Assembly (NCBI RefSeq): GCF_040183065.1
Contig: NC_091131.1
Span: 13,228,300 to 13,292,299, forward strand
From: Periplaneta americana
Taxonomy: Eukaryota > Arthropoda > Insecta > Blattodea > Blattidae
Direction of reading: 5' to 3'
DNA length: 64,000 bases
Positions 5,396-64,000 of the stretch are shown here, piece by piece. A program made the position numbers and the translations under genes. Within the stretch, counting starts at the first letter, position 1. Every line of letters begins with the position of its first letter. The notes under the pieces were generated by a model. That model was given only the letters and a program-made list of their open reading frames with translations, made no database searches and was not told the origin of the DNA.

Positions 5396-5728
5396 AGCTA
5401 ACCTAACCTAACCTAACCAAAGCTAACCTAACCTAACCAAAGCTAACCTAACCTAACCTAACCAAAGCTAAGCTAACCTAACCAAAACTAATCTAACCTA
5501 ACCAAAGCTAATTTAACCTAACCTAAGCTAACCTAACCTAAGCTAACCTAACCAAAGCTAACCTAACCTAACCTAACCAAAGCTAAGCTAACCTAACCAA
5601 AACTAATCTAACCTAACCAAAGCTAATTTAACCTAACCAAAGCTAATTTAACCTAACCTAAGCTAACCTAACCTAAGCTAAGCTAATCTAAGCTAAGCTA
5701 ACCTAACATAACATAACATAACATAACC
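5396..5728 (-). repeat. Interstitial degenerate TTAGG-type tract
   Basis: About 330 bp of AACCT-based repeats, that is (TTAGG)n on the minus strand, with regular variants AACCAAAGCT and AAGCT and a terminal AACAT run. Longer units recur, including AACCTAACCAAAGCT, so the tract has local higher-order structure. TTAGG is the ancestral insect telomere repeat; this copy is intronic and degenerate, so it is not a functional telomere. Confidence 0.9.
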
Positions 5729-6439
5729 TTCGTAAATGCAAGGCCTGTAACCGGAGCAAGAAGGGATCTCAATCATTTAATCTGCAAGTACACGCAAAAA
5801 TAAATTCAAGTAAGGATCACGCTCCCACTGCATGAGAGGTCCGCGCATGCGCTACAGCAAAACTGTTTCTGTCCCGAGCCTCTCCTCTAAGGCACTCGTC
5901 ATAATTTACTCGCAATATTTACGCAAATACACATTGTCGCTAACAGTGGTGCTATCTCTCAATAATGTTCAGAACGAAGGAGGTAGACAGAGAGAGAAAA
6001 AATTTCTCCCGCCAACTACGCCACACACCAACGTCACGTTCTTATGTTGGTGACATTGTGTATTTACTTAAATTTGGTGCTAAACGTAACGGCACGGTTC
6101 AAAGTGACCGTGCTAATTCTCCAGTATAGCGTTTTTTTTTTAAGTATGGGCTATTGTTGCCTATAGTGATACATTTTCAAATGATAAGATAACGGATATG
6201 TTCATTTTTCTTTTTTTATTTTCTTTTTAATTATTATTTTTTTTTTTCTTACAAAAACAATAGTTATTATCTATGAATATGAACTATAAAACTGGCCAAA
6301 CATCCCGAACATTAACTATTATTACTGCATAGTATATAAATAAGAGAAATATTTATAAAAACCTAATAAGAAAACCAAGGCATGTAGTATTACGCTGTGT
6401 AATGGAACATGTTGTATGATGAAATAAAACAAAACAAAA

Positions 6440-14534: not shown

Positions 14535-14780
14535 CAGGTTAGGTTAGGTTATGTTAGTTTAGGCTTTTAGTACGTCTTGCATATGCGAATCAGTGACTAG
14601 TTAAGTTAGGTTAGTGTAGATTTCCGGTATGCCTTGCATATATTCAGAATTGTCTAAGAATGTGCCCTTTCTTGCTGTCTGCCTTCCTTTGGCAATGCTT
14701 TGTAAAGATTTACCAAAAGCTTACGTTAGGTTAGGTTAGGTTAGGTTAGGTTAGCTTAGCTTAGCTTAGCTTAGCTTGGC
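14535..14780 (+). repeat. Short TTAGG-type tracts
   Basis: Two clusters, near 14535-14565 and 14724-14775, of GGTTA repeats. The second changes from TTAGG to TTAGC units. The orientation is opposite to the tract at 5396-5728. Confidence 0.85.
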
Positions 14781-20611: not shown

Positions 20612-22190
20612 CACTCGGGGACAAAAAAAACCAGACACTTCTATATTTGCTTGTATTTTGTTGCCAATTATTTCAAAATGAAACAAAACCCATTTAAACA
20701 AAATAATGTTCCATTTAGCACCTTATACGACAACATTTGAAAAAAATTAAAATCTCTGATGAGAAAATTTACAAAAAATTACAAAGGGCGTATAACTATG
20801 GCATCGGTTGGTCTAACTGTTTTTTTTTTTTTTTTTTTTTTTTTTCATTTTATGGTGCCTTAAACATTAAAAACTTTTTTTAGTAACGGGTATTACCCCC
20901 TCTGGCTTGAATAACTGCATCCATACGTCTTGGCATGCTCTCAATTTGGTTAGCAATGTCTTCTTGGGGAATAAGTTCCCATTCTTCGCCAAGTGCTCGC
21001 CTCAACTCTTGTAACGATTCTGGTCTCGGTGTCTATTCTTAACACGCCGTCCCAGCATGTCCCACACGTGTTCAATTGGGTTCATGTCTGGACTCCTTGC
21101 TGGCCATGGAAGAACATGGATTCCCACTTCTTGGAGATAATCTCCGACCGCATGGGCAATATGCGGCCGTGCATTATAATGCATTAAAACAAAATTATCG
21201 CCTACAAATTGGCCAAATGGCACAACATGATCAGCCAAACATTCATTTATATACCTATCAGCTGTTAGTCTTCCACTTTCAACAAAAACCAACTCTGTAC
21301 GAGCATCCGTACACACTCCTGCCCAAACCATCACTCCACCACCTCCATACGGCACATTTTCGGAAATGCAACACTGTGAAAATCGTTCTCCCCTCCTTCT
21401 CCAAACTCTTTCACGTCCATCAGGTGAGCACAGATTGAAACGGGACTCATCGGTGAACAGAACACAGCTCCACTGTCCATTTCTCCAATCCCTGTGATCA
21501 TTTGCAAAACGCAGTCGTTCAACTCGATGCATTCTGAGAAGTCTGGGACCAGTTGCAGGTCTACTTGATATCAGTCCACTTGCTTTCAACCTCCTTCTAA
21601 CTGTTTTGGCCGAAATTGGGTGTCCATGCATGTTAACAAATTGCTGGGCTACACTAGTAGCTGGCAGGTTGCGCTCCCTAAGAACTCTCAACACCATATA
21701 CCTGTCTTCATTTGGATTTGTAGCTCTTGGACGACCCGAACCTGGTCTTCTGGTATATTCTAGGGTCCTCTATACCGTTTTATGGCATCCTGGGTTGTGC
21801 TTCTAGCCATATTCATAACATTTGCAATGTAACGTACACTGTGTCCATCATCGTAAAGGGCTACAGCTTGAGCCACATTTTCAGGTCGCATCTTGTTTTA
21901 TGACAAATGTTACAACCCCACTTAAACTCAGAAAATGTAAAAATAAAGAAATAACGAATGATAACGATAATGAAGTACAAAATGGTTGAGACAAAATTGT
22001 TATAGCTGAGACTCCAAAAGCAAAATTGAAATATTTGGTTGTAATGGCTTGTTTATAAAACAAAAAACAATCAACAATGTATACACGTCTCCATAACAAC
22101 AGATGGCTACCATAATATTGTATGAGAAGATAATATTTTGCAAAATACCAGCAAATATTAAAGTGTCCGGTTTTTTTTTGTCCCTGAGTG
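20612..22190 (-). mobile_element. Full-length Tc1-like DNA transposon
   Basis: The 1,579-bp element is bounded by ~47-bp imperfect inverted ends (CACTCGGGGAC... and its inverse GTCCCTGAGTG) with TA on both sides (20610-20611, 22191-22192). One transposase gene fills most of the minus strand. Length and structure fit Tc1. A poly-T run lies at about 20820-20845. Confidence 0.93.
20880..21891 (-). pseudogene. Tc1-family transposase, frameshifted and catalytically dead
   Basis: The protein would start MRPENVAQAVALYDDGHSVR at 21891 and end GGNTRY before the stop at 20880, about 337 residues, normal for the family. The N-terminal HTH lies in one frame. After about 21755 the frame shifts into the long stretch holding KTVRRRLKASGL and FTDESRF (first catalytic Asp). 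Next comes MHYNARPH, where the usual MHDNARPH second Asp is Tyr, and SPDMNPIEHVWDMLGRR with the DDE/D Glu. A second frameshift near 21030 precedes a tail resembling PESLQELRRALGEEWELIPQ. Two frameshifts and the lost Asp mean it is inactive. Confidence 0.92.
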
Positions 22191-30592: not shown

Positions 30593-32011
30593 CTAGCCGT
30601 ACCCGTGCGCTCCGCTGCACCCGTTACAAATAAATATAAAGTAATTACATAATTACAATAGGACATTTGATCCAGGGAACATTCGTGTTTGATAGAAGGA
30701 TAAATCGTTTAATATGTTACTTAATTTAAATTGTATTTAAAATATTACAATGCGATCATTTTGATCCAGAGACACTCATTTGGTGCAATGACAATTCCTT
30801 TAACATGTTTCTTAATTGTTATTACCAATTATTTTTGGAAAAGCGAAAATTAACAGAAAAATTTTGGCTACAGATTTATTAATATGTTTATATTATATTA
30901 TATTATATTATATTATATTATGAAAAAGTGTGTTGATAACGGATGTAGGCTACTCGAATTAGAAAGTTTTTAATTTGTTGTGGGAGCTCTTGAATCTCAG
31001 GAGGAACAACTTTTACAACAGCGCAACATAATCTGCCTGGCTCATTACCCAATTTTTTTGCATTGCATTTATTGCATATGTATTTTATGTATTTTAACAC
31101 AATTCAATTGAGCATAGTTAAAATTTGAATTATAAAATAATGGATTGCTAAGCTAACATACTATTACTGCATACTAAATCAATACACTCTCGTTGTTCGT
31201 TAATTCTCTGAGATAAAAATGAATATGTTCATAAACATTATTATAGGAAATACAGGAAATGAATATACAGAATAACCTATCGAGTTTTCTGTGCATAAGA
31301 AGCTATTTTAATCTTACCTGTCCTCAATTCACTCAGAAGTTACTGTAATAACATTATGGTATTATGTCCATACGGAGAAAATACACTTTCCAATGGTGAA
31401 ATAATAATTAATTATACAAATCGGTTAATTTAGCTTCCGATATTGCTTCATACAAACTCAGAAACATTTTCTGTAGGCTATGATTCATAGCTTTCGATTG
31501 TTGTTGACCAAGACCCCTTATAGACGAAGTCATTTGTTTATTTCATTACACGGCCTTAGATGGCAGTAATTTTAGTTTTAAAACTCATTTATCTAATTAA
31601 ATATCAGTCCTATCAAAATTGTTCAAAGAATAAAACTTATAGGAAATGATTTTTAAAGAAATTTTTGTTATGTAACATTTTTCATAAAAATCAATAATAA
31701 GCGAGATATTTCGATTTATTTAATTCAGGCCCCTTATAACCCCCCTTTTAAATAATGTATTTTGAATGCCATATAGCCTATAATCTAAGTTACAACGAAC
31801 TTAATTTATATTCCAATTTTCATCGAAATCCGTTCAGCCATTATCGCGTGAAAAGGTAACAAACATACAGACAGACAGACATACAAACAAAAATTTCAAA
31901 AAAGCGATTTTCGGTTTCAGGGTGGTTAATTATATATGTTAGGACCAATTATTTTTGGAAAATCGAAAATTACCAGAAAAATTTCGACTACAGATTTATT
32001 ATTAGTATAGA
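30593..32011 (-). mobile_element. Helitron-like element, copy 3, apparently composite
   Basis: The outer ends match the family (ACTAGCCGTACCCGTGCGCT at left; ...TTAGTATAGA at right, followed by T). At about 30820-30885 an internal copy of the 5' terminal region (CCAATTATTTTTGGAAAAGC...CAGATTTATTAATATG) appears. It is followed by ~300 bp of foreign AT-rich DNA with a (TATTA)n run before family sequence resumes near 31200. This suggests one element inside or next to another. Confidence 0.72.
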
Positions 32012-32021
32012 TTATAAATGA

Positions 32022-32282
32022 TTGATTAAATGGCGATCTTACTCGTGTTAATTGTGTAAGCATGTGCGGCTTACAGCTGTTTCGGTGCTTCTTCACACCA
32101 TCTTCAGAGCCTACTAGATCTCGGTGTCATCTCGAACTTCGCTGCCTGTTGTGTGGGTGCGTTCGATTGTTGAAAAGTGTTGAAATGTGGTGTCAAATAG
32201 TGTGTGTGTTCTGAAATTGATCTGTGTGTTGAGAATTTGATCAGGGTGTGTATTAACACGAGTAAGATCGCCATTTAATCAA
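32022..32282. mobile_element. Inverted-repeat element carrying a hammerhead-like motif
   Basis: A perfect 31-bp inverted repeat (TTGATTAAATGGCGATCTTA... at 32022-32052 and its inverse at 32252-32282) bounds 199 bp. The interior carries the motif at 32068-32111 and a GTGT-rich stretch. It abuts the right end of Helitron copy 3. Family unknown; a tail-to-tail pair of Penelope-like terminal repeats is one possibility. Confidence 0.65.
32068..32111 (-). ncRNA. Hammerhead-ribozyme-like motif
   Basis: Minus strand order: GGCT, CTGAAGA, T, GGTG-loop-CACC, GAAAC, a short AC...GT stem III, then A, then AGCC. GGCT pairs with AGCC as stem I. The elements match the type I hammerhead layout (CUGANGA, stem II, GAAA, short stem III, GUH). 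It has one extra U after CUGAAGA. Activity is untested. Confidence 0.45.
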
Positions 32283-32399
32283 TTATTTATATTCAAGTGT
32301 TAAAAATAGTGTACGAAAGATTCAACATGGATTTACGATTAATTCGCGTAGGTTATAGGTTAGAATCTTCATTAAAAACATTTTATGTATTGGTACTTG

Positions 32400-33255: not shown

Positions 33256-33840
33256 ATTTTTCGGAAATTTTTAAAATTATATCCCGTAAGTATAATGAGA
33301 ACATAGTTTCTAATTATTTTATATATCTAATTTTCGAACATTCGTTATTAATCCATTGCTGTCTAACATCGTGCCTTGCGCGAGATGTGAGGGCTGTCCA
33401 ACCCCTGGCTGCCAGGTAACATTTCTGAGACAAGGTGATTTTTGAAAGCAGTTTTTTTTTTTGCTGTGTTATTTTGTCACGAATTTATGACGGTATTATA
33501 TGTTTGTGTAGTTTTTTCTAGATTTGAAGATGATTTTACATCAAATTAAATACTTATTATTAACTGAAGAACAAAATTAATTGAAAATGTACTCCTCACA
33601 TAATAGGTTCACCAGAGAACACCCCGTTACAAGCTAAATGTTGAATTCACTTTCCTTTTTATATAGGTACTTCCCACATAAAATAAAAAGAATTCAGTAA
33701 TGGACTGTAAACAGTGCACCAACCACAAGAAAAGAAGTGAAACAACGTGGGAGTTCAAGAAATCTGGTTGTCCCCCACATTCCAGAGTACTTCAAAGCCT
33801 ACCAAACACTTCAAAATTATTAAAATAAGGTAAGACAATG

Positions 33841-36450
33841 ATTAAATTACATAAGTTAGGTCAGATGCAACAGTGTTCATGAGTAAGATAGTTATATATA
33901 ATAAAAGTAATATAATACAGTTATATGAACACTTTTTAATGATTGAATAAAATTAATAAAATCGGTTAAAAACCATACATGTTTCGGAGGAATGCTCCTC
34001 CATCTTCAGTGGTAGTACCACGATGCTGGTACAGATGTTCGACCGTGTAACTTCTAAACCAAATCGTTTTGTTTAGCAGTTCAATTTGGAGACACATGTC
34101 GTGGTACTGATTGACCAAGTTTTCTTCACTAGTAACCATGATTAAATTACATAAGTTAGGTCAGATGCAACAGTGTTCACGAGTAAGATAGTTATATATA
34201 ATAAAAGTAATATAATACAGTTATATGAACACTTTTTAATGATTGAATAAAATTAATAAAATCGGTTAAAACCATACATGTTTCGGAGGAATGCTCCTCC
34301 ATCTTCAGTGGTAGTACCACGATGCTGGTACAGATGTTCGACCGTGTGTCTAAACCAAATCGTTTTGTTTAGCAGTTCAATTTGGAGACACATGTCGTGG
34401 TACTGATTGACCAAGTTTTCTTCACTAGTAACCATGATTAAATTACATAAGTTAGGTCAGATGCAACAATGTTCATGAGTAAGATAGTTATATATAATAA
34501 AAGTAATATAATACAGTTATATGAACACTTTTTAATGATTGAATAAAATGAATAAAATCGGTTAAAAACCATACATGTTTCGGAGGAATGCTCCTCCATC
34601 TTCAGTGGTAGTACCGCGACGCTGGTACAGATGTTCGACCGTGTAACGTCTAAACCAAATTTTTTTGTTTAGCAGTTCAATTTGGAGACGCATGTCGTGG
34701 TACTGATTGACCAAGTTTTCTTCACTAGTAACCATGATTAAATTACATAAGTTAGGTCAGATGCAACAATGTTCATGAGTAAGATAGTTATATATAATAA
34801 AAGTAATATAATACAGTTATAGTAACACTTTTTAATGATTGAATAAAATGAATAAAATCGGTTAAAAACCATACATGTTTCGGAGGAATGCTCCTCCATC
34901 TTCAGTGGTAGTACCGCGACGCTGGTACAGATGTTCGACCGTGTAACGTCTAAACCAAATTTTTTTGTTTAGCAGTTCAATTTGGAGACGCATGTCGTGG
35001 TACTGATTGACCAAGTTTTCTTCACTAGTAACCATGATTAAATTACATAAGTTAGGTCAGATGCAACAATGTTCATGAGTAAGATAGTTATATATAATAA
35101 AATTAATATAATACAGTTATATGAACACTTTTTAATGATTGAATAAAATTAATAAAAATCGGTTAAAAACCATACATGTTTCGGAGGAATGCTCCTCCAT
35201 CTTCAGTGGTAGTACCGCGACGCTGGTACAGATGTTCGACCGTGTAACGTCTAAACCAAATCGTTTTGTTTAGCAGTTCAATTTGGAGACACATGTCGTG
35301 GTACTGATTGACCAAGTTTTCTTCACTAGTAACCATGATTAAATTACATAAGTTAGGTCAGATGCAACAATGTTCATGAGTAAGATAGTTATATATAATA
35401 AAAGTAATATAATACAGTTATAGTAACACTTTTTAATGATTGAATAAAATGAATAAAATCGGTTAAAAACCATACATGTTTCGGAGGAATGCTCCTCCAT
35501 CTTCAGTGGTAGTACCGCGACGCTGGTACAGATGTTCGACCGTGTAACGTCTAAACCAAATTTTTTTGTTTAGCAGTTCAATTTGGAGACGCATGTCGTG
35601 GTACTGATTGACCAAGTTTTCTTCACTAGTAACCATGATTAAATTACATAAGTTAGGTCAGATGCAACAATGTTCATGAGTAAGATAGTTATATATAATA
35701 AAATTAATATAATACAGTTATATGAACACTTTTTAATGATTGAATAAAATTAATAAAAATCGGTTAAAAACCATACATGTTTCGGAGGAATGCTCCTCCA
35801 TCTTCAGTGGTAGTACCGCGACGCTGGTACAGATGTTCGACCGTGTAACGTCTAAACCAAATCGTTTTGTTTAGCAGTTCAATTTGGAGACACATGTCGT
35901 GGTACTGATTGACCAAGTTTTCTTCACTAGTAACCATGATTAAATTACATAAGTTAGGTCAGATGCAACAATGTTCATGAGTAAGATAGTTATATATAAT
36001 AAAAGTAATATAATACAGTTATATGAACACTTTTTAATGATTGAATAAAATTAATAAAATCGGTTAAAAACCATACATGTTTCGGAGGAATGCTCTATCT
36101 TCAGTGGTAGTACCGCGACGCTGGTACAGATGTTCGACCGTGTAACGTCTAAACCAAATTTTTTTGTTTAGCAGTTCAATTTGGAGACGCATGTCGTGGT
36201 ACTGATTGACCAAGTTTTCTTCACTAGTAACCATGATTAAATTACGTAAGTTAGGTCAGATGCAACAGTGTTCATGAGTAAGCTAGTTATATATAATAAA
36301 AGTAATATAATACAGTTATATGAACACTTTTTAATGATTGAATAAAATTAATAAAAGCGGTTAAAAACCATACATGTTTCGGAGGAATGCTCCTCCATCT
36401 TCAGTGGTAGTACCACGACGCTGGTACAGATGTTCGACCGCGTAACGTCT
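33841..36450. repeat. Tandem array of nine ~300-bp units
   Basis: Units start at 33841, 34141, 34437, 34737, 35037, 35338, 35638, 35939 and 36236, with spacing 296-301 bp; the ninth is partial. Each has the order ATTAAATTACATAAGTTAGG, AT-rich middle, a hairpin region with TTTCGGAGGAATGCTCC, and ACTAGTAACCATG at the join. Units 4 and 6, and units 5 and 7, share diagnostic variants (TATAGTAACAC with GACGCATG, versus AAAATTAATAT with GACACATG), so part of the array is a ~601-bp dimer repeat. Minus 34253-34435 shows a 60-codon open frame that is not conserved as coding. Confidence 0.97.
33972..34013 (-). ncRNA. Hammerhead-ribozyme-like motif, first of nine tandem copies
   Basis: Minus strand order: ACCA, CTGAAGA, T, GGAGGA-GCAT-TCCTCC, GAAAC, AT, GT, A, TGGT. 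ACCA and TGGT pair as stem I, stem II is 6 bp with loop GCAT, stem III is the 2-bp AC/GT, and GTA is an allowed GUH cleavage site. Further copies: 34271-34312, 34568-34609, 34868-34909, 35169-35210, 35469-35510, 35770-35811, 36070-36107 and 36367-36408. The 36070 copy lost 4 bases of stem II. The extra U after CUGAAGA departs from the textbook core. Confidence 0.5.
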
Positions 36451-38815
36451 TTCGTTAGGAACTGTAATTTTTGCGCTCTCTCGAGCCAATACTGAAGAGA
36501 ATGATGCATGTAAATATCTACACCACACCGCCATTAAGTATATGAAAAAGACCCAACCCCACTTGATTAATAACTATAAAAATATTTGATTTTAACAATA
36601 TTATCTTACTTAAGTTTTGTAGTTATGTACTGTATATAATAGCCACCACTCAGTAAATTATAGAAATGAAGATCTAATTTAAGATATTCTCTACATCTAC
36701 TTGTATAAACCCAAAACGTTTCACATTATTATGTATAATTAATTTAAAATAGTCACATCATGGCGTTAACTATAATAATATTTCATGTATAATGGTAATA
36801 ATGTCATCAAACCACCTCAAGTTTTGTAGATTTTAATATCCAATACACAGCTTTACTCAGAAAATTACACACTGCAGAATCAGACCTGTAAGTTATTTTA
36901 GTAAGTCTTGAAGTTTTTAATAACCAATTGAATTTGAACTCTAAATATGTCAGCAATCCTGCAGGTCATGGCCTTCGTGTAATAGCCTATTGTTTATTGT
37001 AGTATGTGTTTTGTTTTATTCTGAAATGCAATTAGTACTCAAAACTGACGAAAGATGGATTTTGGGAAATAGGAAAATTATGTAGGAAAACTAATGCTTC
37101 ACTGAAAGTTGCTATTTTTCTGAAAATCTTTGGTTGCCAAGCTTCAAAATGACGGGTCACTCATTAAAATCCGTTCAGCCGTTTTCCCGTAATTTTCATT
37201 ACCAGTTCAAATTATATATGTTAGTCATAATTATCTTACCCGTGCAGTGATCATACTTTTATTTTGCTTGTGTGCTTCCTACATGACGCTTGAAAGTAGT
37301 ACCAGTATCACGTGTTATTGCTTTAAAGACAGCTGTTGGTTGCGGATGAATACAGTTATTTTGACGTCAGAATTAAAAGTACAGTGAACAGACTATTGGT
37401 ACTGTATATACAACGTTAAAGGTGGGAGGAAGAAATTTTGCACAGCACTATAAGAAGTGTGATTTTGAAGTGGAAAGACAGACTTAAATATAATTCTGCC
37501 ACTCTGATAAAAAAAATAAATTAGTGACGTTTTAAATTATCATTTTGTTACCGTCAAGGTTACTTGTTTTAATGTAATCCCGAAGAGGATTCTTTTTAGT
37601 TCGACGAATAAAATTGCACCATTTCTTGAGACAAGGTTTAATATTTTACGAATCTTTGAATTTGCCATATTAGTCAATATGGTTAATACAAAACAAATAC
37701 CATTTTTAGCGAGTGTCAAAATTATTTTTCAATATACCTACAGAGTTAATAATTGAGATGCCTTTATCATCCACATCTGTTGCCTTTTTTTGAAGATACA
37801 AATGTACGTATATCCATTTTATTGTATTTATTGGATTGTAGCTAAGTAACACTAATTGTAAGTAACATGAATTTACTTTCCGCATAATAAAATGGCTTCT
37901 GAATACTACAATTTAGCTATCACAATTTTTCATATTTTCTAACGCCTCATTCATCTGTTTGTCAAAGCCATGGAGATGACTTCAGGTATGCACGTGTAAA
38001 CAAAAGCATTCAATTTGCTTGCGTCATCATTCATAGCATGTGCAACTCTTTGTGCATTGTTAAGTGGACGTGAATGTAATGTAATGGCATTATCCTATTT
38101 TCATGACAAAGGTTATTTACTCAAATGCTAGACGAATTTAGTAATATCTCATACAGTTTTTGTAGGTTACTTACGGATCAAACAAGGACGAAATTAAAAT
38201 ACCAATTGGTTGTTTGTGCAAAATGTTTACTTTTTGTGAAAAAAAAAAAAAAGACAGGGATATAATGATATCTCGATTGCGTGAAACGTCTAAACTCGAA
38301 TTAAACAGTAAAATACATTAATACTATATGTATTTTCTTTAGCATTGTAGTGTATTTTATTTTATATTTATGTAGCGTACATCGGGTGTCTCAAAATAGA
38401 CCGACATTGTAGTAGTAGCCACAGACTAAAGAAATATGCCAGTGGAAACCCAACAGTCCTCTTTTAAATACTTTTCAAGTTATCAATCTGTGAATTTGTT
38501 AAAACCCAGTCCTAATAATGAAAGTTTGGCAATGTCTGAAAGGTATAAAGGAGGGAAGGATATAATTATGTTATTTGTAGGATGTTTTGTTTCTTTTCGC
38601 TCAATTGATTTATACATTTAAAATAAGTAAAACTGTGTAAAATCAACCTAACTCACAGTGATTAGGCAGTGTATGGAGAGCTGTTCTCGGGTTCCGCGGC
38701 AAGTTCAATAGTTCGATGACTTGCTCGATTATTATAAGACTTGCCACCGCAGAAACAGAATGTTATTACTATCGAAATTAAAAATCGATTTTTGATCTAC
38801 TACTATAGATGAGCA
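36451..38815. other. AT-rich DNA, no recognised feature
   Basis: No coding, RNA or transposon signature recognised over ~2.4 kb. A 12-base A run lies near 38240. Confidence 0.5.
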
Positions 38816-51641: not shown

Positions 51642-51965
51642 GGGAAGGGAAGGGAAGGGAAGGGAAGGGAAGGGAAGGGAAGGGAAGGGAAGGGAAGGGA
51701 AGTTCGTAACTTGTGACTAGTTGGGAAGGGAAGGGAAGGGAAGAGAAGGGTAGGGAAGGGAAGGGAAGGGAAGGGAAGGGAAGGGAATAGAATAGAAGAG
51801 AGAAGAGAAGGGAAGGGAAGAGAAGGGTAGGGAAGGGAAGGGAAGGGAAGAGAGGGAAGGGAAGAGAAGAGAAGGGAAGGGAAGGGAAGGGTAGGGAAGG
51901 GAAGGGAAGGGAAGGGAATAGAATAGAAGAGAGAAGAGAAGGGAAGAGAGGAGAGGAGAGGAGAG
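51642..51965. repeat. (GGGAA)n pentanucleotide array
   Basis: About 320 bp of AAGGG units with variants (GAGAA, GGTAG, AATAG). A 22-bp spacer containing TTCGTAACTTGTGACTAG occurs twice (near 51620 and 51702), so a unit plus spacer was duplicated. Confidence 0.96.
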
Positions 51966-52415: not shown

Positions 52416-52996
52416 AGACGTGGACAAATTATTAACAAAATTGACGATTTTTATGATAATTCTGTTTACAAAATTTGACTTTTCAATTTAAACTACAGTT
52501 GACAATTTTGCATATTTCCATCATTACAGTAGACAGAAATATGTAAAAATGTCAACTGTAGTTAAAATTGAAGAGTCAAGTTTTGTAAAAATATATAATA
52601 AAAATCTTCAATTTAGCTAATAATTTATAAATTAGCAAAAATGTCATCTGCATTGAAGAGCCAAATTTTGTAAAAATATAAAACAAAAATCTTCAGTTTT
52701 GCTAATAATTTGGAAATATCCAAAATGTCAACTGTAGCCCAAATTGAAGAATCAAATTTTGTAAAAATATACAATAAAAACCTTCAGTATCGCTAATAAT
52801 TTGTAAATATGCAAAAATATCAAATGTAGTCCAAATTGAAGAGTTAAATTTTGAAAAATATACAATACAAATCTTCAATTTGGCTTATTATTTGGAAATA
52901 CACAAAAATGTCAACTGTAGTCTAAATTGAAGAATCATATTTTGTAAAAATATATAATAAAAATCTTCAATTTTGCTAATAATTTGTCCACGTCTG
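52415..52996. mobile_element. TA-flanked element with internal ~90-bp tandem repeats
   Basis: The ends are inverted: CAGACGTGGACAAATTATTA at the left and its mirror at the right, with TA on both sides inside the (CTA)n array. The interior is about five copies of a ~90-bp AT-rich unit carrying GTCAACTGTAG and ATTGAAGA, at about 52551, 52643, 52727, 52819 and 52909. No coding. Confidence 0.85.
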
Positions 52997-53372: not shown

Positions 53373-53445
53373 GGGGGCGTAGCTCAGATGGTAGAGCGCT
53401 CGCTTAGCATGTGAGAGGTACCGGGATCGATACCCGGCGCCTCCA
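53373..53445 (+). tRNA. tRNA-Ala (AGC)
   Basis: A 73-nt cloverleaf: acceptor GGGGGCG with CGCCTCC (one G-U pair), D arm GCTC-AGATGGTA-GAGC, anticodon arm CTCGC-TTAGCAT-GTGAG with anticodon AGC, T arm CCGGG-ATCGATA-CCCGG, discriminator A. A and B boxes are intact. T runs from about 53450 can serve as the Pol III terminator. It lacks a SINE body, so it reads as a genuine nuclear tRNA gene. One G-U pair in the anticodon stem is the only blemish. Confidence 0.92.
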
Positions 53446-62245: not shown

Positions 62246-63516
62246 CAGTTTATTGCTAGAACAAAGATACATATTGTTTTTTATATAATCACTCTAGCAC
62301 CCCCAGAAAGAATAAGTTACGTACTCGTGCTCAGGGGGGCGTTCCACATAATTTTAAGACATTTTATTAAATAACAGAATAAAAGTAAAAAAAAAAGAGG
62401 AAAAAAAGAAAAACACAGTTTATCACAATAATTGAAACTTTAAATTTTCTGTCTCTGAACAGTATTTTTTAAAATAAGGAGCATTAGCAAATTTATGTTA
62501 GAGAATTTAGCTATTACCTATTGTAGCAAAAAAACCGAAAATACACTGAAACATAAGATCTCATAGGTACATTTTCTTGGTCAACTAATGATGCCATTGT
62601 TTCCAAATTTTTACCAGATCTTACATATTGTCGTCGTTGAGTCAGAAGTCACTAAGTCCAAAATTTACGAAGTCCATTATTTTGGATATTCTAAGAAATA
62701 ATGCGTATCTACATGGCAACAATTTCACATTTATGCCGATAAAATTAAGTAGGAGATGTAATCAGAAGAAAAAAATAGGTTAAGTTATGCCAAAACAAGT
62801 TTTTAAAATTTGATTAAACTTTAAAATCGCTGTAACTCAAAACAACAACTTTGGACTTGGTGATTTCTGCCAGAACGACGACGATATTGCCTTGTGTTAG
62901 TGAAACTCAGTTTTTATTTTTATAACTTGAAAATTAAGTCAGTTTCATAAGTTTATACCTACATGCTGTAAATTTTTTTTTCCAAACTCTAATTTTTTAA
63001 AATATCACAAAACCGACAGATCTTTCTCCAATTAAGTAAAAAGTGAATTTCTTATAGCTGTATCTGATAAAAATTTGGGAGCAATGACATCATTTGTACC
63101 TATGTGAGCTTATGTTCTAGTGTATTTTCGATTAATTGTAACAATTAAACAAATTATTTAGGACAGATGAATAATCTAAATTAAGTGAACTGTATATCAT
63201 TCAATTCAGCTTTCTTTCCAGATTCAGTGATAAAATTTATATATGACTATCATAAATATTGTGGTAAATATTGTAAAAAGTGTCAGTTCGTGTTTTTCCA
63301 TAATTTTTGTACGCGTTCACAGCCCGCTGCTCTTAACGCTAGTAGTTAAGTTTGTCCCAGTTTGGAGTATGGAACGTAATTCATTTTAGAGGAATATACT
63401 ATATAAGGTCTTCCCCAAATTTCTTGCCCCCCCACAAGCAAAATCTAAAATGACTCCCTGATATTTCTTGAACAGATTTTATATTGAACTTTAATGATTG
63501 CAACTGTTTTTCTCAG
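62241..63516. other. Intronic DNA, no recognised feature
   Basis: AT-rich, ending in the acceptor TTTTTCTCAG before 63517. Confidence 0.55.
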
Positions 63517-63810
63517 GCTTCCAGGTACAATTTCTTCAAAGGACTGCACTTCTGGCTGTTACTTTCGGCCTTCCCAGAGATGGACCCTCTGATGGAGGAC
63601 CTGGAGTTACTGGATCTGCCTCTAGACAGTCAGGTGATCGTGGCGGGATTCGAGACCGATCAGAGTCGGTTCCTGCTTCGAGAAGTGTACCGTCTGGGGA
63701 ACAACTCTCTCACGGTGACGCCTTCAAGTTATTGGGAAGTTGGGGATCCTTTACCTCCCGAGGCTCGAAGGGACAACTTCAACAACATGACCATGAATTC
63801 GGGCGTCATT
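63517..63810 (+). CDS. Ir75-like ionotropic receptor, third visible exon
   Basis: The exon encodes 98 residues: ASRYNFFKGLHFWLLLSAFP, EMDPLMEDLELLDLPLDSQV, VAGFETDQSRFLLREVYRLG, TVTPSSYWEVGDPLPPEARR and DNFNNMTMNSGVI. LPLDSxV, LxEVYR, and YW...RR-N---M--GV are landmarks of the IR75 clade just before the ligand-binding S1 lobe. It follows TTTTTCTCAG (phase 0) and ends before GTGAGT at 63811 (phase 0). The ligand-binding domain, three membrane segments and pore lie beyond the window. No defects are visible. I am confident of the IR family, less so of the exact paralogue. Confidence 0.85.
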
Positions 63811-64000
63811 GTGAGTGGTACTGAGGGAGGCTAATTAGATTTAGAATTAAAGTAATAGTGATAATGAGTAATAGGATTAGGGACATGAATAGAGATGATA
63901 AAGACATTAAGATCTCTTCAAAATGACCTGTACTAGGACTATTTTGGGACTTAGGAATAAGTTAAAGTTGATCAGGTTCAGAATTGAAATGAAGTAAGTA

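Follow-up and report, generated by a model that had tools for sequence, protein, structure and literature searches.

The window analysed here is a stretch of 64,000 nucleotides from the genome of Periplaneta americana (assembly of 3.23 Gb in 91 contigs). Its minus strand carries a tandem array with a period of 300 bp, 8.7 copies and 97% matches according to Tandem Repeats Finder (Table 1). The array includes eight full units of 297–301 bp and a ninth, partial unit; the GC content of unit 6 is 34%, and alternating units share some variants. Each unit carries a motif of the form ACCA-CTGAAGA-T-GGAGGA-GCAT-TCCTCC-GAA-ACATGT-A-TGGT, unbroken in eight of the nine units. In unit 2 (C3 at 36104), 3 nt of stem II are deleted. 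A preliminary description of this DNA had recognised tandem units of about 300 bp with a hammerhead-like layout on the minus strand, and this is confirmed. It considered stem I to be only 4 bp long, which holds for the inner 4 bp but overlooked an outer helix: past an internal loop stem I resumes, and this outer pairing is CGGU/ACCG in six units and has UGGU as its 5′ side in the other three. It was also right in describing stem III as minimal (2 bp) but overlooked that the stem III segment, ACATGT, is a palindrome.

Table 1. Features of the array and of related motifs in the window
Feature	Position	Strand	Basis
Tandem array, PLE-derived repeat, 8.7 units	33838–36450	-	Tandem Repeats Finder, unit alignment
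Hammerhead motif, unit 1 (ACCA..TGGT); predicted cut 3′ of A at 36371	36367–36408	-	
Hammerhead motif, unit 2, broken (stem II minus 3 nt)	36070–36108	-	
Hammerhead motif, unit 3	35770–35811	-	Descriptor match
Hammerhead motif, unit 4	35469–35510	-	Descriptor match
Hammerhead motif, unit 5	35169–35210	-	Descriptor match
Hammerhead motif, unit 6; predicted cut 3′ of A at 34872; 34859–34916 with outer stem I (CGGU/ACCG)	34868–34909	-	
Hammerhead motif, unit 7	34568–34609	-	Descriptor match
Hammerhead motif, unit 8, stem I internal loop one T shorter	34271–34312	-	
Hammerhead motif, unit 9, in the last, partial unit	33972–34013	-	
Exon-exon junction CAGCG/TCGCGG, unit 6	34919–34920	-	GT-AG intron there in PLE copies L307, L309
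57-aa ATG ORF of unit 7, ends over the hammerhead	34562–34735	-	
Similar ORFs of 56–60 aa	33966–34139, 34253–34435, 34862–35035, 35163–35336, 35463–35636, 35764–35937, 36064–36234	-	
53-aa ORF, ATG formed by hammerhead A9-U-G10.1	34738–34899	-	
Two more ORFs of the 53-aa type	34438–34599, 35339–35500	-	
Longer ORF through the 53-aa frame, from an upstream ATG	36348–36509	-	
F2 hammerhead motif, GGCT-CTGAAGA-T-GGTG..CACC-GAA-ACAGCTGT-A-AGCC	32068–32111	-	Descriptor match
43-bp inverted repeats (32010–32052 / 32252–32294), 95%, bracketing the F2 motif	32010–32294		

The core of a type I hammerhead (C3 U4 G5 A6 N7 G8 A9 / G12 A13 A14 / A15.1-U16.1 / H17) is present in eight of the nine units. A single nucleotide, U, separates CTGAAGA from stem II, and passages of PMC10085705 describe the spacing between CUGANGA and the stems as none, or at most 1–2 nt. 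Inspection, which was not a systematic search, identified no contact between loops I and II; such a contact is reported to be absent from the minimal hammerheads of Penelope-like elements (PLEs) in passages of PMC6155905 and PMC7761336. In isolated 63-nt folds, units 1 and 3–7 form both stem I and stem II of the drawn structure, and a pair between the extra U and G12 lengthens stem II; this pair belongs to the local MFE structure of six units. In unit 2, stem I is retained and stem II is defective, and a competing local hairpin is favoured over the hammerhead in units 8 and 9. In a 300-nt context the pairing probability of stem I is only 0.07–0.38 (three units). The local fold of the array motif is better than that of shuffled sequences (z -2.18; 3 of 200 shuffles equally good), and the circular monomer, 53% of which is paired, is weakly more structured than its shuffles (z -1.65).

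Chance agreement was estimated with a relaxed descriptor which allows 0–1 nt after CTGANGA and requires 4 bp or more in each of stems I and II, along with GAAA, A15.1-U16.1 and H17. Its expectation per 64 kb on both strands is 0.007 in a first-order Markov simulation (7 matches in 128 Mb), and conditional simulation over 30.5 million contexts gives 0.004. Requiring the extra nucleotide, together with a palindromic stem III no longer than 8 nt, lowers the figure to about 1e-5 (13 matches, conditional simulation); these two criteria were added post hoc, when the motif had already been seen, and palindromic stems III are known in papers for other hammerheads. In the window itself, the true descriptor matches the array and only one more site (32107, minus strand), and 719 descriptors with a permuted core give 4 matches in total outside the array. 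The architecture, these estimates and, above all, the relatives described below support the earlier reading of the array motif as a type I hammerhead with minimal stem III, for which self-cleavage is predicted.

The extra U between CUGAAGA and stem II had been a caution in the preliminary description. Viral contigs (IMG/VR) were scanned with the pattern CTGAAGATGG-N(3,14)-CCGAAAC, which leaves stems I and III outside, and with a control in which G8 was mutated. Stem II reaches 4 bp or more in 37 of 87 distinct matches against 4 of 49 controls, and 21 of the 87, some of them near-identical, are full type I hammerheads with the extra U, against none of the 49. The extra U is also common to two other hammerhead families of the P. 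americana genome, whose stem III is palindromic and whose stems, though of other sequence, pair fully. Since it occurs in both these families and the 21 viral-contig hammerheads, it is no defect and the worry is removed. An alignment of 18 extra-U hammerheads used core letters selected from the window motif. Several of the 21 viral-contig hammerheads (L122–L231) lie shortly upstream of an ATG. Three extra-U candidates with a 4-nt spacer and GTA were set aside, as they resemble coding sequence rather than hammerheads. A descriptor scan of 298 viral loci found none with a palindromic stem III of 6–10 nt.

The preliminary description proposed running the Rfam covariance models on the minus strand. 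No hammerhead match was obtained for the window, the array, the motif or the F2 motif. The same models also miss the extra-U hammerheads of viral contigs at five of five loci (two of them near-identical), and that of L148 was also missed alone on 111 bp. As a positive control, two ordinary type I hammerheads of L017 scored 25–30 bits (E <0.001), below the gathering score of 34; a scan at gathering score of 18 loci chosen by the hammerhead core pattern gave no hammerhead. Because the models miss extra-U hammerheads in viral contigs, the negatives for the window carry little weight and, after the positive controls, they were dropped as evidence against a hammerhead. In the cases tested, then, Rfam misses a natural subtype with one U after CUGANGA, and such motifs may therefore be undercounted.

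Relatives of the array motif, which we call family F1, are numerous in the genome. The exact 32-nt core is present in 519 copies, eight of them in the window, against none for a reversed control, and the F1 core matches listed include many inverted pairs. The second motif of the window (F2), which the preliminary description had passed over, has other stems than the array motif, yet has in common with it the extra U, the GUA triplet and the palindromic nature of stem III (ACAGCTGT). Its exact core has 26 copies genome-wide, including that of the window (control, 0), and shuffled versions of it fold locally just as well (z -0.07). The stretch next to the inverted repeats that bracket it is one which we take to be Helitron-like. 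Members of the third family, F3 (GTAT-CTGATGA-T-GTTGA..TCAAC-GAA-AACGTT-C-ATAC), are found in eight of 15 GIY-YIG loci (10 motifs against 0.003 expected). Comparison of the three motifs shows a common architecture in which each of stems I–III differs in sequence between families and still pairs, so that the extra U and the palindromic stem III are common to families with unlike stems. The palindromes ACATGT (F1), ACAGCTGT (F2) and AACGTT (F3) can pair over their full length only between two copies, which would give a stem III of 6, 8 and 6 bp respectively.

Among 79 distinct flank-anchored F1 copies, 73 keep the core layout and six fail. Position 17 in the 73 is C in 38, A in 32, T in two and G in one, that is, H in 72, and stem III is palindromic in 65. 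The array has a GUA triplet and many relatives have GUC. Mean identity to the majority base over the 79 copies is 98% in the core, 95% in the inner hammerhead, 94% from the anchor to stem I, 90% over the following 40 bases and 75% farther out, a gradient that is only suggestive because the anchor favours near bases. Within the array, two of 22 variant events fall inside the inner hammerhead against 3.0 expected, and there is thus no sign of selection on the motif at this level.

F1 and F3 adjoin PLE coding sequences in some of the loci examined. PLE coding adjoins the F1 copy in three of nine loci read for ORFs (L307, L309 and L310), and there is no clear PLE ORF in the other six. One ORF of L310 matches RVT_1 with an E-value of 2.6e-5, below the curated cut-off, and the GIY-YIG model has no match to the endonuclease-like pieces beside the F1 motifs of the three loci. 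At L409, an F3 locus, both RVT_1 (1.1e-13) and GIY-YIG (7.9e-7) exceed their cut-offs; L408 also has RVT_1, and it holds an open PLE frame of 811 aa. The F1-linked pieces were assigned to PLEs by homology to ORFs of the L409 type: the RT piece of L310 is 48% identical (E 2.6e-26) and its EN piece 35% (E 4.7e-17) to PLE ORFs of GIY-YIG loci. These loci come from a genome search with PF01541, in which 150 of 7669 candidates were scored with at least 108 matches and 15 loci were examined. At one of the 15, L393 on contig C85, the best GIY-YIG match looks like UvrC, with no PLE and a neighbourhood that looks bacterial by eye; C85 may come from a symbiont or a contaminant. A pseudo-LTR plan, in which an inverted hammerhead, the ORF and a sense hammerhead follow one another, is found at L309 and L307 (F1) and at L408 (F3), an order resembling the PLE plan of Adineta in passages of PMC3846280. 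Within the window, the array unit does not recur in inverted orientation. Bases 65–152 of the unit were considered as the start of a PLE ORF, which was unconfirmed; the stretch matches other loci.

PLE copies contain a GT-AG intron just upstream of the hammerhead, and this intron is exactly absent from all nine array units. At the donor side, GAACATCTGTACCAGCG is followed by GTGAGT in L307, L309 and L310 (one mismatch in L310), the exon end being CAGCG/GTGAGT; at the acceptor side (CAG/TCGTGG), CAG is followed by TCGTGGTAYTRCCACTGAAGATGG in L302, L303 and L309. The alignment of an array unit splits at the intron, with an overlap of one base, in L307 and L309, and 497 bp lie between the two parts in L309. 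In every unit the junction lies 14 nt 5′ of CTGAAGA (CAGCA/TCG in units 8 and 9), and the exact junction sequence without intron occurs at 237 places in the genome, seven of them in the window. Lacking the PLE intron, the array units were therefore probably derived from spliced RNA, and splicing followed by reverse transcription would be the simplest cause of its loss. The earlier notion of a satellite hammerhead is correct in that the hammerhead lies in a tandem repeat, but the array consists of a PLE-derived intronless unit and is not free-standing.

Short related elements are dispersed in the genome. TSD-like direct repeats no shorter than 10 bp (12 bp in most cases) are found at the edges of 16 of 30 dispersed clusters against 0.6% of mismatched edge pairs; with repeats of at least 8 bp the figures are 18 of 30 and 6.3%. 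The 16 repeat-flanked clusters are 228–660 bp long, shorter than a PLE ORF needs. Other short tandem arrays are present in three of 94 loci, many of which are too short to show any, with monomers of 289 bp (L335), 255–256 bp (L388) and 141 bp (L389). In L389 the same 12 bases, TTACCTGGTTGA, flank both sides of an inverted piece plus array. The window array has no TSD at its own ends (about 30 bp examined on each side).

The units also contain ORFs, and it could be proposed that the array is one of functional tandem small genes, the hammerhead look being a codon by-product. Eight units have an ATG ORF of 56–60 aa, GC is 42% in the ORF against 22% outside, and of three deletions in the ORF two preserve the frame. 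On the other hand, 15% of shuffled units yield an ORF of this length, substitutions in the ORF mostly change amino acids (judged by eye), no convincing relative of the 57-aa ORF was found in Pfam, PDB, phages, IMG/VR viral contigs or the prokaryotes of GTDB, and F2 and F3 keep the same architecture with other letters. After the shuffles, the conservation data, the genome copies and the intron-bearing PLE copies, this reading was dropped, and we regard it as very unlikely. It is even harder to believe that the letters merely resemble a hammerhead by chance: although there is no Rfam match and the motif was spotted by eye, which implies some pattern selection, this extremely improbable coincidence would have to overcome the expectation of 0.004–0.007 per 64 kb (or about 1e-5 when the subtype features are required), the permuted-core control and the occurrence of three independent families in one genome. 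The 53-aa ORF whose ATG is formed by the hammerhead itself may be compared with the Anolis PLE as presented in passages of PMC11167929.

A more serious alternative is that the array is a dead relic, descended from a PLE hammerhead and amplified as an ordinary satellite by unequal crossing-over, with no cut transcript and nothing mobilised. The motif is not over-conserved within the array and unit 2 has lost its stem II; the missing TSD at the array ends, the absence of an inverted unit from the window and the variants shared by alternating units point in the same direction. Against this, eight of nine motifs are intact, and related short arrays exist with different monomer lengths, one of them flanked by TTACCTGGTTGA. 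We consider such a relic quite possible, if short of probable. As to the nature of the array, it is very probably a satellite of intronless PLE end-pieces (the pseudo-LTR region) with the family's minimal type I hammerhead, which is likely to work as a dimer cutter. This explanation is based on the anatomy, the relation to PLEs, the missing intron and the TSD-like repeats of the short related elements; transcription, cleavage, dimer action, circles and the use of PLE enzymes are inferred. The array is accordingly classed as a putative retrozyme-like satellite that derives from a PLE and carries a minimal type I hammerhead.

In the mechanism that we propose, a minus-strand transcript of the array would fold and two hammerheads would pair through ACAUGU/ACAUGU into a double hammerhead, a dimeric mode of cleavage suggested by the palindromic stem III. 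Cutting 3′ of position 17 would release RNAs of about 300 nt with 5′-OH and 2′,3′-cyclic phosphate ends. These might then be circularised by ligation and copied back in trans by PLE enzymes. Passages of PMC6155905 describe newt and viroid motifs that act as dimers, and a palindromic stem III is noted for several hammerheads in a supplement legend of PMC3088659. An amphibian retrozyme hammerhead with a one-pair stem III and a palindromic tetraloop cut poorly as a monomer (passages of PMC7229834), and the Anolis PLE hammerhead cut only with protein added (passages of PMC11167929). By analogy with these precedents, weak cutting as a monomer and better cutting as a dimer or with the assistance of protein would be expected. 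We further suggest, tentatively and with some doubt, that spliced PLE transcripts give rise to small circles made by the hammerhead, and that rolling copying and insertion by PLE enzymes generate intronless arrays (monomers of 300, and of 289, about 255 and 141 bp) in single events. If true, PLEs would be the visible parents of animal retrozymes, and the unexplained PLE hammerhead would have a job. As the missing intron would mark a passage through RNA, the origin of the arrays could be tested on RNA and DNA reads that already exist.

Minimal type I hammerheads of PLEs were reportedly described by Cervera and de la Pena in 2014 and by Lunse et al. in 2017. Passages of PMC7761336 place them in a pseudo-LTR context with a very short stem III, suggest that they act as dimers, call their role in PLEs a mystery and only propose PLEs as helpers of retrozymes. 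Like these, the array is derived from a PLE pseudo-LTR and has a very short stem III; it differs in being ORF-less, intronless and tandem, and in its family palindromes (ACATGT, ACAGCTGT, AACGTT). Metazoan non-LTR retrozymes (passages of PMC7229834) likewise have tandem units of about 300 bp, low GC and a type I hammerhead and, with 300 bp and 34% GC, the array falls within the retrozyme definition of tandem low-GC units of 150–450 bp with such a hammerhead. In contrast to these retrozymes, it is visibly PLE-derived without the PLE intron, its unit is weakly self-paired and inspection identified no canonical loop contacts. The satellites of newts, Schistosoma and Dolichopoda cave crickets (PMC2837043 and passages of PMC6155905) also carry hammerheads in tandem repeats, but the core in the array has the extra U, and its relation to PLE copies is documented here. 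Passages of PMC3846280 on Penelope-mediated transfer in trans in Adineta vaga describe inverted pseudo-LTRs, head-to-head palindromes, TSDs and foreign cargo between pseudo-LTRs; introns are kept in Adineta, whereas the small dispersed elements of P. americana are intron-free. No such array appears in titles and abstract openings on hammerheads with Periplaneta, cockroach or satellite DNA, or on retrozymes with insects, a survey mostly of papers available without subscription. As far as these searches show, hammerheads of PLEs and of satellites are known and the PLE-derived intronless tandem form is new. A single genome presents both ends of the path: PLE copies that have the intron as well as the hammerhead, and short derivatives lacking the intron, of which many have TSD-like repeats and some are in tandem.

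The window contains several other features. Tandem Repeats Finder detected TTAGG-type (CTAAC) telomere-like interstitial arrays at 5398–5729 and 14721–14774, and a GGGAA microsatellite (51642–51946) and a 91-bp minisatellite (52536–52986) lie near a tRNA gene (53373–53445). An ORF on the minus strand (21002–21769) encodes a Tc1/mariner-type transposase (DDE_3, HTH_Tnp_Tc3_2), and one on the plus strand (63472–63834) matches the N-terminus of ionotropic receptor 75a (PF24576, E 3.2e-8).
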